Shown one piece after another: positions 2,264 through 15,810 of a stretch of DNA of 64,000 nt (position 1 is its first letter; each line of letters opens with the position of its first letter). Below the pieces are notes generated by a model. The model was not told where the DNA came from, ran no database searches, and saw only the letters and a program-made list of their open reading frames with translations. Made by a program: the position numbers and the translations under genes. Location: positions 62,001-126,000 of the forward strand of contig JADFDO010000006.1 of the NCBI GenBank assembly GCA_018262855.1, given 5' to 3'. Source of the stretch: Methanolinea sp. GTDB lineage: Archaea > Halobacteriota > Methanomicrobia > Methanomicrobiales > Methanospirillaceae.

Positions 2264-3796
2264 CTACAGCCAGGACGGCCACGGGATGCCCAGGTGCTTC
2301 GCAAGCTCAGAAATCTCATCGTGAATCTCCCGGTCCAGCCTGAAAAGGACCAGGAAATAGACCAGTGCACCTGCACCAATAATCAGGATGAGGACTGCTA
2401 CGTGAAAGACCGGAATGAGTATCCGGGTCGCGGAGAGGACTGCTGCCATCACCACTGTTGCTGTGAGGATATTCCGGATAGTCCTCCTCTCAACACCGAT
2501 ATACATGCTCCGTGAGAGTGCCCACCTTGCACCCGCAGCCCGGACGATGCAGGTAATGAGGAGCGCCAAGGCCGCACCCGTGATCCCGAAGAGCGGTATC
2601 ATAATCAGTTCAAGGAGAACAAGGAGGGCTGCTGAGATCGCGTTCAGGATGAACACTGGCCGGGGCCGTCCGAGTGCCCCAAGTACCATGGTGTCAAGGG
2701 AGAAGAGAATCATCCCGGCCTGAGATAAGAGGATGAGCGAGAATGCTGACGTGGCAATGACAAACGGTGAGCCGTACAGGAAGAAGAGGAGCCTTTCAGC
2801 GAGAATTAAACCCCCTGCAATGAGCGGGACCGCAAGCACCAGGGAATACGACAGCGCTCTTCCTGCCGCATGGCGAATGGATTCCTCTTCGTGCTCCTCG
2901 TTCCACCGGCTTATTTTCGGGAACAGGGATGTAGAGAGTGACGTTGAGACGAAGAGGGCGAGGGTTGCGAGCTGCATCGGCGCCCGGTAATACCCGACTT
3001 CCGTGCTGTTGAGAAAATACCCGACAAGAACCGTATCAGCATATCCCGCAAGGATGCCGGAAAGCCCGGTGAGAAAGCCCCATGCCGCATAAGGGACCAT
3101 TGCCCGTAGGTGCCTCCAGCCGAACGCTGCCGGACGGAAATGCAGGAAGCGCACGTTGATGGCAACCGCAGTACATAGCCCCGCGACAAATCCTCCAGCC
3201 ATCCCGGCAATTGAAAACCCCGCATACACCGCAGCGATCTGCACCATGACCCGGACGATATGGCCCGCAAGTTCTGATACCTGAAGAGCGCCGACACTTC
3301 CTCCCCCGTAGACTCCTGTCGAGATCACCCCCGCGATCGATCCTGCTGCCAGCGCCAGGAGAAGCCATGGAATGAGCCCCGCTCCAGCAAAATCCCTCAT
3401 GAATGGGGAGAGGAGGAGAACGATGAGACCGGTGCACACAACAAGGAGGATTATCCTTGTTGCCGCCTGGGCAGAAAAATAGGCATCCTGGTCCCTTCCC
3501 TCACTGATCTTCTTGACAGCCGCGCCACCCATCCCCCCGTCAGTCCCGAGAATCGCAAGGCTGTAGTATGCGAGAAAGAGGTAATATGCACCGAGAACCT
3601 CTGCCCCCGCAACATGTGCGATGTACACTGTTGCCAGGTATCCAACGAGGGTTACACCAACATTTGTGCCGAGCGAAATGAGCGCCTGCCGTCTGACGGT
3701 ATCGATCCCGAGCATCTGCCGGACGATAGAGCGGGGGTCCACAACACCTGTATTGGGTCCTGACAATATATGCCCCTCCATGGATCCCCGGTGCAC
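2264..3796 (-). CDS. Oligosaccharide flippase family membrane protein (Wzx/MATE-like)
   Basis: About 505-510 residues with some 12-14 hydrophobic segments and short loops, the layout of polysaccharide biosynthesis/flippase proteins. The N-terminal half has RQALISLGTNVGVTLVGY and GAYYLFLAYYSLAILGTDGG, the typical flippase entry helices. The family moves lipid-linked oligosaccharides across the membrane for surface glycans or protein N-glycosylation; the substrate here is unknown and no glycosyltransferases are adjacent. The longest frame starts at GTG 3796. ATG at 3781, preceded by GGGGA, is the more likely start. The AAA/TOPRIM pair follows on the same strand after 82 nt. Confidence 0.8.
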   Translation of the reverse strand: MHRGSMEGHILSGPNTGVVDPRSIVRQMLGIDTVRRQALISLGTNVGVTLVGYLATVYIAHVAGAEVLGAYYLFLAYYSLAILGTDGGMGGAAVKKISEGRDQDAYFSAQAATRIILLVVCTGLIVLLLSPFMRDFAGAGLIPWLLLALAAGSIAGVISTGVYGGGSVGALQVSELAGHIVRVMVQIAAVYAGFSIAGMAGGFVAGLCTAVAINVRFLHFRPAAFGWRHLRAMVPYAAWGFLTGLSGILAGYADTVLVGYFLNSTEVGYYRAPMQLATLALFVSTSLSTSLFPKISRWNEEHEEESIRHAAGRALSYSLVLAVPLIAGGLILAERLLFFLYGSPFVIATSAFSLILLSQAGMILFSLDTMVLGALGRPRPVFILNAISAALLVLLELIMIPLFGITGAALALLITCIVRAAGARWALSRSMYIGVERRTIRNILTATVVMAAVLSATRILIPVFHVAVLILIIGAGALVYFLVLFRLDREIHDEISELAKHLGIPWPSWL

Positions 3797-3862
3797 TTCA
3801 TGAGTGCAAATGTACCGAAAAGGTGTTGTTCCCGGTGGTCAACCATATTCTAGAGTGTGCTG

Positions 3863-4777
3863 ATGGCAGTGGAGCCAATCATCGAAGCGCACGATCTCCG
3901 GAAGGATTTTGGTGCGCTCAGGGCCGTCGACGGTGTCAATTTTTCGGTGATGCCGGGAGAGGTCTTCGGGTTCCTTGGACCGAACGGGGCCGGAAAGACC
4001 ACCACCATGAAGATGATCGAGTGCGTCTCTCCAAGGAGTGAAGGTGATCTCAGTGTCTTCGGCCTCGATATAGGCAGCCATCCAAGGGAGATCAAGCGCT
4101 GGCTTGGGGTCGTACCCCAGGAAACCAACCTTGACACCGATCTTACCTGCCTCGAAAACCTGGTCACGTTTGCCAGTTACTTTGACATCCGGAAAGAAGA
4201 CGCCCGTGCAAGGGCGGCCGAACTCCTCGATTTCGTGCAGCTCTCCGAAAAGAGCGATGTTCTCATCGAGAAACTCTCTGGGGGGATGAAACGAAGGCTC
4301 ATCCTCGCAAGGGCACTCGTGAACAGCCCCAGACTCCTCATCCTCGACGAACCGACGATTGGACTCGATCCCCAGGCACGACACCTTATGTGGGAGAAAC
4401 TTAAAGCCCTCCAGTCGGCAGGAAATACCATCGTCCTTACAACTCATTACCTCGAGGAAGCCGAGCGACTCTGCAACCGCCTCGTGATCATGGACCACGG
4501 GAAGATCCTGGTCGAGGGTGCTCCCGCAGACCTGGTCCGCCAGTATGCTGGAGGTGACGTTGTCGAGGTGAACCACACCCCCGAAGTGACAGCCTGCCTC
4601 GAGGAGATGGGCGCCCGCTTCGAGGTGTTTGGGGACATGGTCCAGGTCTTTTCAGATCACCCGAAAGAGGTTGCAACCCGTCTTTTATCGACCTGCAATC
4701 CTGGGAAAATTTTTGTGCGTCGTGGATCGCTCGAAGATGTATTCCTCTCCCTCACCGGGAGGGCACTCAGGGAGTGA
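3863..4777 (+). CDS. ABC-2 transporter ATP-binding protein
   Basis: About 304 residues. Walker A GPNGAGKTTT, Q-loop VVPQE, signature LSGGMKRR, Walker B LLILDEPTIGLD and H-loop TTHYLEEAE are all present and in order, so the ATPase should be active. The C-terminal 80 residues form the accessory domain of the NodI/CcmA/DrrA group, which energises export through an ABC-2 permease. The permease follows with a GTGA overlap, giving a two-gene exporter operon. ATG 3863 is taken as start; an in-frame GTG lies two codons earlier. The substrate cannot be deduced; drug, lipid or polysaccharide export are all known for the group. Confidence 0.88.
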   Translation: MAVEPIIEAHDLRKDFGALRAVDGVNFSVMPGEVFGFLGPNGAGKTTTMKMIECVSPRSEGDLSVFGLDIGSHPREIKRWLGVVPQETNLDTDLTCLENLVTFASYFDIRKEDARARAAELLDFVQLSEKSDVLIEKLSGGMKRRLILARALVNSPRLLILDEPTIGLDPQARHLMWEKLKALQSAGNTIVLTTHYLEEAERLCNRLVIMDHGKILVEGAPADLVRQYAGGDVVEVNHTPEVTACLEEMGARFEVFGDMVQVFSDHPKEVATRLLSTCNPGKIFVRRGSLEDVFLSLTGRALRE

Positions 4778-14323: not shown

Positions 14324-14974
14324 CTACTCCACGGTTGGGGGGTTTTGGCAATGTTTTCCTCTCATACCTCCTTCAGGTGGTGAAGGCAGCTCGTCCCTGT
14401 GCTCTTCCATGAACTGGCGCAACAGTTCCCGGGCTGCCTCCATATCGCCATTCTCGACCGCTGCCCGGATGGCGCTCACATCGTATCCCTGATCTTCCAG
14501 CTTCTCAAGGTGCTTTAATATCCGGTCGCTTTTCCCGGAAGAGTTCGGCAGCTCGTCCCTGTGCTCTTCCATGAACTGGCGCAACAGTTCCCGGGCTGCC
14601 TCCATATCGCCATTCTCGACCGCTGCCCGGATGGCGCTCACATCGTATCCCTGATCTTCCAGCTTCTCAAGGTGCTTTAATATCCGGTCGCTTTTCCCGG
14701 AAGAGTTCGGCAGCTCGTCCCTGTGCTCTTCCATGAACTGGCGCAACAGTTCCCGGGCTGTTTCCATATCGCCATTCTCGACTGCTGCCCGGATGGCGCT
14801 CACATCGTATCCCTGCTCTTCCAGATTCTCAAGGTGCTTTAGTATCCGGGTATTCGGATCTCCAGGGGCATGACCCGAATATGTTGAATTCTCAGCGAGT
14901 ACCGCCTGCACCGGCACCAGTATCAGGAATCCAAGTACTGCTGAAACTGCAATGAATTTTGACAGATTTTTCAT
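14324..14974 (-). CDS. Secreted protein of three 54-residue helical repeats
   Basis: 216 residues. The signal peptide (KNLSKFIAVSAVLGFLILV, cleavage near AVLA-EN) is followed by three tandem 54-residue units. Each starts RILKHLE, contains QGYDVSAIRAAVENGDME and ends EEHRDELP. Charge pattern and heptads suggest helical hairpins. The short C-terminal tail is Pro/Gly-rich. The function is unknown; similar GYDVS..AV..GD repeats occur in other exported methanogen proteins. GGAGGAG before the ATG gives a strong ribosome site. Its promoter region carries two palindromes. Confidence 0.85.
   Translation of the reverse strand: MKNLSKFIAVSAVLGFLILVPVQAVLAENSTYSGHAPGDPNTRILKHLENLEEQGYDVSAIRAAVENGDMETARELLRQFMEEHRDELPNSSGKSDRILKHLEKLEDQGYDVSAIRAAVENGDMEAARELLRQFMEEHRDELPNSSGKSDRILKHLEKLEDQGYDVSAIRAAVENGDMEAARELLRQFMEEHRDELPSPPEGGMRGKHCQNPPTVE
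14385..14870. repeat. Three tandem 162-bp coding repeats
   Basis: GGCAGC boundaries occur at 14385, 14547 and 14709, exactly 162 bp apart. The first two units look identical base for base, while the third (N-terminal in the protein) has a handful of substitutions. The unit is 54 codons, so copy-number change keeps the frame. This indicates recent unequal duplication inside the secreted-protein gene. Confidence 0.93.
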
Positions 14975-15000
14975 ATCTCCTCCATGTGGGTTCCTCAGGT

Positions 15001-15045
15001 GTCAGCGTAACACTGACGTAAAATATATTTTACATTATGTTATAT
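15001..15045 (-). promoter_or_regulatory. Promoter/operator region of the repeat-protein gene
   Basis: GTCAG-7-CTGAC (15001-15017) and the perfect 16-bp palindrome GTAAAATATATTTTAC (15018-15033) sit side by side. They are followed by TTATATAA (15039-15046), which can serve as the TATA box of the minus-strand gene starting at 14974. The palindrome downstream of a TATA element is the usual place of an archaeal repressor site. No direct evidence identifies the regulator; the HTH gene at 15159-15365 is next door. Confidence 0.45.
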
Positions 15046-15158
15046 AATACTTACTAAAAGTAAAATCTAACCTGCTGAACCTAAAAGGGCCTAGAGTAGA
15101 TCGGGAATTACAGGTTGAAGAAAAAACAGGTAGCCAAAAAAACGGAACAGTCGTGGTT

Positions 15159-15365
15159 CTATGATGGCTTTGCCTCATCATACACAAAGACTTCTTCGAT
15201 GGTGACCCCGAAAAATCCGGCGATCTTGAAGGCGAGTTCCAGAGACGGATCATACTTTCCCTTCTCGATCGCGAGAATGGTCTGCCGGGTCACCTTGAGT
15301 TGTTGTGCAAGTGCTTCCTGGGTCATGTCGTGCATGGCACGGAAGACCTTGATCTTATTCTTCAT
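15159..15365 (-). CDS. XRE-family HTH regulator (small, YozG/archaeal type)
   Basis: 68 residues from ATG 15365. The whole protein is one helix-turn-helix: FRAMHDMTQEALAQQLKVTRQTILAIEKGKYDPSLELAFKIAGFF, ending IEEVFVYDE. The ATG overlaps the stop of the DUF2178 membrane gene by 11 nt, which favours this start over the longer frame from 15395. HTH plus small membrane protein pairs of this kind are common in archaea and Firmicutes. The target may be its own promoter. Confidence 0.88.
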   Translation of the reverse strand: MKNKIKVFRAMHDMTQEALAQQLKVTRQTILAIEKGKYDPSLELAFKIAGFFGVTIEEVFVYDEAKPS

Positions 15366-15810
15366 CTGAATCCCACTCCCCGTATTTTCGTGCATAGTAT
15401 ACCCGGAATCCGATGTAGAGGAATGCGATGCAGCAGAGAAGGATCATCTGGAGGATTCCAAAATATCCGAGATGCGGCTCATCCCTTGGAAACCCTGGCG
15501 GCAGGTTCTTTCCGGGAGGAATACCAAGGGGCGTGCTGAACCCGATGACAGCACTGCCGAGGCTGACCGCAAAAAAGAGCACCCAGAAGACCTCAAGGGT
15601 CCGGAAACCCGCTTTCTGGGTTATCATGACGGAGCGTTCATCCTCCTTGAGATCGGTGATGGTCATCCTGGCAATGTAGAGGAGGCCTACACCCATGATG
15701 AATCCAACAGTGATAATAAGCGGATTTCTCAACAGAACAGAAATTACAAAGAGACCGACTTCGAGGAGCCCAATCAGCCCGAGCAACAAATAAAAGGTAT
15801 TCTGTTTCAT
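15355..15810 (-). CDS. DUF2178-like integral membrane protein
   Basis: 151 residues with four hydrophobic spans. LKEDERSVMITQKAGFRT, a charged loop between spans 2 and 3, is typical of DUF2178 proteins ('DER' loop). The gene is upstream of, and overlaps, the small HTH regulator, so the two should be co-expressed. The function is unknown; the pairing suggests the membrane protein modulates the regulator or is its target. Confidence 0.72.
   Translation of the reverse strand: MKQNTFYLLLGLIGLLEVGLFVISVLLRNPLIITVGFIMGVGLLYIARMTITDLKEDERSVMITQKAGFRTLEVFWVLFFAVSLGSAVIGFSTPLGIPPGKNLPPGFPRDEPHLGYFGILQMILLCCIAFLYIGFRVYYARKYGEWDSDEE

Follow-up and report, generated by a model that had tools for sequence, protein, structure and literature searches.

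A secreted tandem-repeat protein gene of Methanolinea sp. shares a putative operator with an ABC exporter operon

RESULTS

The repeat gene and its product

The window, that is, the whole stretch of 64,000 nucleotides of Methanolinea sp. DNA that was analysed, carries on its minus strand a gene for a secreted repeat protein, preceded by genes for an XRE protein and a DUF2178 membrane protein (Table 1). The repeat gene is single-copy in its own 2.29-Mb genome. Hydropathy analysis of the 216-residue product gave a single peak, at residue 17, with no hydrophobic segment beyond residue 40, which indicates that the protein, 188 residues long when mature, is secreted; no surface anchor is visible. 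The term 'surface protein', used in the earlier note on this DNA, is supported as far as secretion is concerned, but no anchor was seen that would attach the protein to the cell.

Over positions 14385-14849, Tandem Repeats Finder reported a period of 162, 2.9 copies and 98% matches (score 888). The two DNA copies listed in Table 1 are 100% identical, as against 86% for 14709-14870 in the same register, and the exact self-match at a shift of 162 covers 214 bp (14385-14598 = 14547-14760). At the level of units, 2 and 3 are identical up to the C-terminal linker, and 1 and 2 differ at six bases, three of the differences being silent and three replacing. Over a 41-codon core, units 2 and 3 showed no synonymous divergence (dS = 0) and units 1 and 2 gave a dS of 0.08, and in a tree of units the three formed a clade of their own (support 100/96). 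The array is real, and chance is no issue at such length and identity. The claims that the gene contains three tandem 54-residue units, two of them identical in DNA, and that they arose by a very recent expansion, made previously from the letters alone, are borne out by the open reading frame, the direct repeats and these distances.

Table 1. Features of the repeat-gene locus (positions within the window)
Feature	Position	Strand	Basis
Secreted helical-repeat protein gene	14324-14974	-	ORF with ATG, 216 aa, mature pI ~4.9; homologues
Signal peptide, residues 1-28	14891-14974	-	Hydropathy peak; cleavage after VLA guessed by eye
Unit 1, residues 43-96	14687-14848	-	Protein register
Unit 2, residues 97-150	14525-14686	-	Protein register
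Unit 3, residues 151-204; end linker differs	14363-14524	-	Protein register
Identical 162-bp DNA copy, first	14385-14546	.	Direct-repeat comparison
Identical 162-bp DNA copy, second; exact match extends to 14760, total 214 bp	14547-14708	.	
Candidate ribosome-binding site GGAGGAG	14977-14983	-	By eye
5'-leader stem-loop GTCAGTGTTACGCTGAC	15001-15017	-	Position kept, stem sequence changes in relatives
16-bp palindrome GTAAAATATATTTTAC, proposed XRE operator	15018-15033	-	Promoter alignment, matrix scan, element search
TATA box TTATATAAC	15039-15047	-	Promoter alignment
XRE/HTH_3 regulator, 78 aa, proposed repressor	15159-15395	-	PF01381 E=2.5e-15; conserved neighbour
DUF2178 membrane protein, 151 aa, proposed sensor	15355-15810	-	PF09946 E=1.8e-9; hydropathy; synteny

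Reliability of the repeat count

Most short reads do not reach the 214 bp of the exact self-match, which makes the figure of three units provisional. Among relatives, 8 of 67 repeat rows begin no more than 100 bp from the start of a contig, in comparison to 1 of about 140-150 DUF2178 rows (Fisher p about 5e-4; the test was run with 8/68 and 1/148, the DUF2178 rows being counted by eye), and gaps of 97 and 68 N are present inside the arrays of genomes G011 and G107, respectively. Many assemblies thus break within the array, and unit numbers from draft genomes are lower bounds. On the other hand, unit 1 is unlike units 2 and 3, which requires that at least two units be real, and near-identical arrays occur in G032 (three units, in an assembly of 2 contigs) and in G095 (about 20 contigs). 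The suspicion of an assembly artefact, voiced in the earlier note, therefore does not extend to the array as such, while the exact count may be affected; that the figure of three results from collapsed or expanded identical copies seems to us unlikely, though worth keeping in mind.

Fold and identity of the unit

The unit has a consensus of approximately xLxxLExxGxDVSAIxAAxxxGDxxTAxTLLxxFxxxHxxx and was modelled by AlphaFold2 as three helices with a mean pLDDT of 81.5, in line with the helical product expected previously. The model of the whole chain gave a low pTM of 0.30, as would be the case for beads on a string.

A single unit compared with Pfam matched nine families at E values up to 0.1 (the best 0.014), all below cut-off and the Spy/LTXXQ family not among them. 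With 62 units the best E was 0.0014, no family appeared in more than 15 units, and none exceeded its cut-off. The whole protein matched 112 Pfam families at E up to 10, with scores above cut-off that came from summed copies. Naming the unit from whole-protein Pfam or NCBIfam matches was rejected, because such scores add up three near-identical copies, and single units stay below all cut-offs. For UBA (PF00627), the first member scored 13.4 bits where the cut-off is 22.4, and 4 of the 62 units matched Pfam UBA with E values no better than 0.056. Searches of solved structures by sequence returned only short helix or designed-protein matches, together with weak phmmer matches (E 0.037 to 0.86, below cut-offs) to chains from the UBA region of CBL. 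Fold searches with Foldseek and VIA-align, run on the unit as well as on the whole-chain model (pTM 0.30), yielded a best Z of 3.9 and no clear match; no UBA chain was among the matches, an absence which proves nothing. Judged by the familiar layout of UBA helices, the unit is similar in length and helix order to the three-helix domains of UBA and CBL, but it differs from them in falling below every cut-off and in its secreted archaeal setting. As modelled, it is best described as a three-helix domain without a family name.

Distribution and turnover of units

A profile built from 62 units, picked from 90, matches 81 of 232 Methanomicrobiales genomes and 21 of 40 genera of this order. Within the family, 54 of 108 genomes contain a relative, and within the genus 9 of 13 do; the named ones are Methanolinea sp. 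SDB (L036) and a MAG of the Methanomicrobiaceae (L035). The phylum was sampled with 392 genomes, of which 30 had matches, all within the window's order, and no unit was found outside Methanomicrobiales in this sample. Matches in Oscillospiraceae (L037, L038) were discarded as a chance resemblance of one short stretch in another protein.

The comparison of copy number, based on one genome per species and thus valid between species only, gave 0, 1, 2 or 3 units per genome in the genus, with none in four genomes (G003, G004, G008 and G012), three in the window's genome, and a family maximum of four (G015). Constancy of copy number among relatives, which the earlier note had considered, is refuted at the species level. 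In 13 of 33 multi-unit proteins the units resemble one another more than they do the units from any other genome. A unit tree, which covered 64 of 88 full-length units over 41 columns only and left many forks open, placed the units of G000, L035, G032, G015, G011 and G037 each in a supported clade of their own, whereas those of G069-G071 and of G051/G053/G062/G064 clustered by position. These patterns support separate expansions in several lineages, others having kept fixed, distinct units. The units evolve under constraint, the median dN/dS over 552 unit pairs being 0.37, which denotes purifying selection.

The DUF2178-XRE neighbours

The two neighbouring products belong to recognised families: the XRE protein scored 56.7 bits with PF01381 (cut-off 23), and its partner 38 bits with PF09946 (cut-off 22.8), which makes it a member of DUF2178. 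Their genes overlap by 41 bp. DUF2178 proteins are present in 91 of 108 family genomes; no description of their function was found in the literature searched.

Of 30 related loci, 20 have DUF2178 and a same-strand XRE gene ahead of the repeat gene. Two of the remaining ten (L029, L030) start inside the array, one (L032) has the pair about 2.6 kb away, as seen in L077, and L025 and L028 were viewed with flanks of 1.5 kb only. At L049, L050 and L056-L058 no pair was found within 5-6 kb, L050 having an XRE gene on the opposite strand only. Across the family, DUF2178 is located within 3 kb of a repeat match in 30 of 54 genomes.

Two further loci deserve separate mention. The third DUF2178-XRE pair of the window's genome (L065, G000:C3:24000-28500) has no palindrome downstream and reads TRNTIMSLE where the others read TRQTILAIE; a different specificity would fit. 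At L080 (G008:C31, ~2630-3200), a non-coding tandem array of ~70-bp units with GAAAACCGC..GCGGTTTTC hairpins occupies the place after XRE where the repeat gene would be expected.

Promoter, palindrome and leader

The TATA box and the palindrome align as one block, their spacing unchanged, in 15 promoters that belong to several genera. An operator matrix was trained on 15 repeat-gene promoters, which score high partly by construction, and compared with a background of 125,740 positions, in which the highest score was 11.9; 35 of 40 loci gave a row in the scan. Downstream of XRE, 14 of 15 first-group loci, most of them training loci, outscored all background, L034 being the exception. Among promoters not used for training, those of repeat genes at L074, L075, L076, L070-L073 and L077 and those of CARDB genes at L064, L078, L082 and L083 also exceeded background. 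The divergent repeat-gene loci L066-L069 matched the operator poorly (scores 1.9-7.9), and none was detected at L056, L057 and L058 (about 6-kb flanks), at L028 (1.5-kb flanks) or at L026 and L027. With neither operator nor detected DUF2178-XRE genes at L056-L058 and L028, the repeat protein must be controlled otherwise there. L049 and L050 have the operator and no DUF2178-XRE cassette within 5-6 kb.

At L079, L080 and L081 the palindrome is missing together with the repeat gene. G004 (L095) has kept the element along with a perfect stem, but no repeat gene was found there, and in G007 a stop in the repeat-gene frame stands alongside a degenerate operator and a broken stem, an instance of co-decay. 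The palindrome preceding the window's own DUF2178 gene, where a site for autoregulation of the pair would be expected, is weak (p=1.3e-3 per position); weak palindromes are located at -27 of many DUF2178 starts, and strong ones in L035, L040, L075 and L082.

A stem in the leader directly follows the palindrome in most promoters, its sequence differing between lineages. In the genus, 92.6% of cells pair, in comparison to at most 51.9% when the stem is slid. The mean z was -2.35, with 21 of 29 leaders below -1.5 (mononucleotide shuffles), and a plain stem search succeeded in 25 of 29 leaders versus 54% of 87 downstream control windows. The covariation score was reached by 30 of 500 shuffles, and Rfam gave no match at E 1. 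With moderate evidence and mixed controls, the stem-loop is likely to be a genuine element.

An element shared with an exporter operon

A search for the 26-nt element with up to two mismatches revealed 25 sites in the 13 genus genomes, 1-3 per genome, and none for the reversed pattern. Eight lie in repeat-gene promoters, nine in promoters of a gene for a CARDB-domain secreted protein, three beside XRE-DUF2178 without recognised cargo, and five represent a variant element. Four of the nine CARDB sites (L100, L102, L110, L113) have no XRE gene within 1.5 kb, and in G005, G009 and G010 the genome's sole DUF2178 gene adjoins the repeat gene, the operator-bearing CARDB-ABC operon being located on another contig. 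The CARDB gene is followed by one for an ABC ATPase of the LolD/MacB class and in L082 also by a MacB_PCD permease gene. The assignment of the exporter to the MacB type is based on ABC_tran in L064 and L141 and on MacB_PCD in L082, the one locus in which the permease was checked.

In the family, 60 sites were found in 44 of 108 genomes (control, 0), 39 of them no more than 1.5 kb from a repeat or DUF2178 match and 10 more before CARDB genes. Of the other 11, three (G016:C54:8290, G017:C69 and G043:C164) are counted from the scan alone; those inspected stand at other genes, among them two that are permease-like, one for a small lipoprotein, and some without identification. The repeat gene, DUF2178, XRE and a CARDB-like gene occur together at L067, L068, L069 and L075; the CARDB-like gene was judged by eye in L067 and L069, and the one in L068 had no match in Pfam. 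Co-regulation of the repeat gene and the CARDB-ABC exporter operon is well supported by these comparisons of promoter sequence.

Several observations were made in passing. The variant element, TTAACATATTGTTAAATATACTTTAC, is conserved in five genus genomes (L115, L093, L116, L092, L094) and adjoins a CotH-domain gene in three of the five; it is possibly another operator, and the CotH locus might be a third target. Small lipoproteins that look alike by eye are encoded behind the operator at L132 and beside the repeat gene at L071 (about 3709-4263), and might add to the outputs of the module. The element also precedes a gene that by eye appears to encode a multi-spanning permease-like protein, at L129 and L148 in G034 and G061.

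DISCUSSION

The secretion signal, the repeated units and their recurrent expansion, the linkage to DUF2178-XRE and the shared putative operator are established as features of the sequence, and a single scheme could accommodate them. We favour, with modest confidence, the view that the repeat gene is among the targets of a small regulon for envelope protection in Methanomicrobiales, which would comprise an XRE repressor, a DUF2178 sensor and an exporter. We infer that the XRE protein would bind the 16-bp palindrome, which follows the TATA box and precedes the start codon, and would block transcription, and that DUF2178, as its membrane partner, would sense envelope trouble and cause release of the repressor. 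The same putative operator before the operon of the CARDB protein and the MacB/LolD-type ABC exporter would allow both to be switched together. Outside the membrane, the secreted string of acidic three-helix beads would most likely hold or mask damaged or foreign material, which the exporter would remove; such a protective, chaperone-like role rests on analogy. A larger number of units would offer more binding sites, and recombination or slippage between identical units could lead to gain or loss of copies.

The earlier note, which did not take in the regulator pair, the operator or the exporter link, pictured a surface protein of variable length. Taken further, this view would make copy number the point of the array, altering the reach or the antigenic face of a structural or adhesive protein. 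The secretion signal agrees with this picture, as do the 0-4 units found between species and their recurrent homogenisation. However, no anchor was seen in a mature protein of only 188 residues, and tight linkage, together with an operator common with the exporter, fits a response system better. Moreover, the stable position-specific units of G069-G071 and G051-G064 indicate that variability is not needed for function. We find this explanation quite unlikely.

One could also imagine a signalling or toxin-immunity circuit similar to SdpC-SdpI-SdpR, in which the repeat protein would be a ligand sensed by DUF2178 and the exporter would provide immunity. One point against it is that the XRE regulator is of the HTH_3 type, SdpR belonging to another family. 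Parts like those of the Sdp system, the mechanism of which is described in PMC1626106, are indeed encoded here, namely a secreted protein, a polytopic membrane protein and a DNA-binding protein, and lineage-specific unit sequences would suit self/non-self signalling. Nevertheless, selection on the units is purifying (dN/dS 0.37) and not diversifying, Pfam searches of the repeat protein and its neighbours found no toxin-like domain, and an operator on the repeat gene itself would create a positive loop. Such a circuit seems improbable to a similar degree.

It is very unlikely that the palindrome, in spite of its position downstream of the TATA box where the transcription start is expected, is merely part of a strong general archaeal promoter (the initiator region), with linkage as mere synteny, since only 1-3 sites per genome were found in 13 genomes (control, 0), it is missing after XRE in L079-L081, which have lost the repeat gene, and it is present at CARDB operons unlinked to XRE.

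An envelope-protection regulon would, if true, give a handle on how methanogens of the order Methanomicrobiales sense and survive envelope damage, by way of a regulon that is conserved, has two targets and bears an operator that can be read. It would also provide roles for DUF2178 and for a repeat family present in roughly one in three genomes sampled from the order (81/232), and account for the frequent change of unit number. In the literature searched, nothing was found on Methanomicrobiales tandem-repeat secreted proteins or on XRE proteins in archaeal envelope stress, nor any description of a dedicated archaeal envelope-stress regulon of such make-up. More tentatively, and with rather less assurance than for the regulon itself, we suggest that DUF2178-XRE could be an undescribed archaeal envelope-stress switch, whose regulon of a length-variable bead string and a MacB-type exporter would be a counterpart, by convergence, of Spy plus efflux, array length being tuned by gain and loss of units.

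Spy, like the unit modelled here, has a helical fold. Our protein is nevertheless a tandem repeat of an unrelated unit, and its chaperone activity is putative. The core BaeSR regulon of Escherichia coli and Salmonella consists of spy, mdtA and acrD (PMC3160322). The BaeSR/Cpx arrangement with Spy and the present one have in common a small soluble secreted helical protein and an efflux system under one envelope-linked regulator, in a very small regulon; they differ in that an XRE protein and a DUF2178 membrane protein here replace the two-component system, and an ABC pump of the MacB type replaces an RND pump. In the Sdp circuit of Bacillus subtilis, the membrane protein SdpI sequesters the repressor SdpR (PMC1626106). 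The methanogen locus resembles it in that polytopic membrane and DNA-binding proteins are encoded together beside a secreted protein, and this likeness suggests that the repressor might be sequestered at the membrane here as well. In contrast to that circuit, XRE stands for SdpR and DUF2178 for SdpI, there is no known toxin, and the putative operator is found also on a distant exporter operon. The module of Methanomicrobiales thus resembles both systems, by analogy and with no claim of membership in either: BaeSR in the pairing of a small secreted helical protein with efflux, and Sdp in the joint encoding of a membrane protein and a DNA-binding partner.
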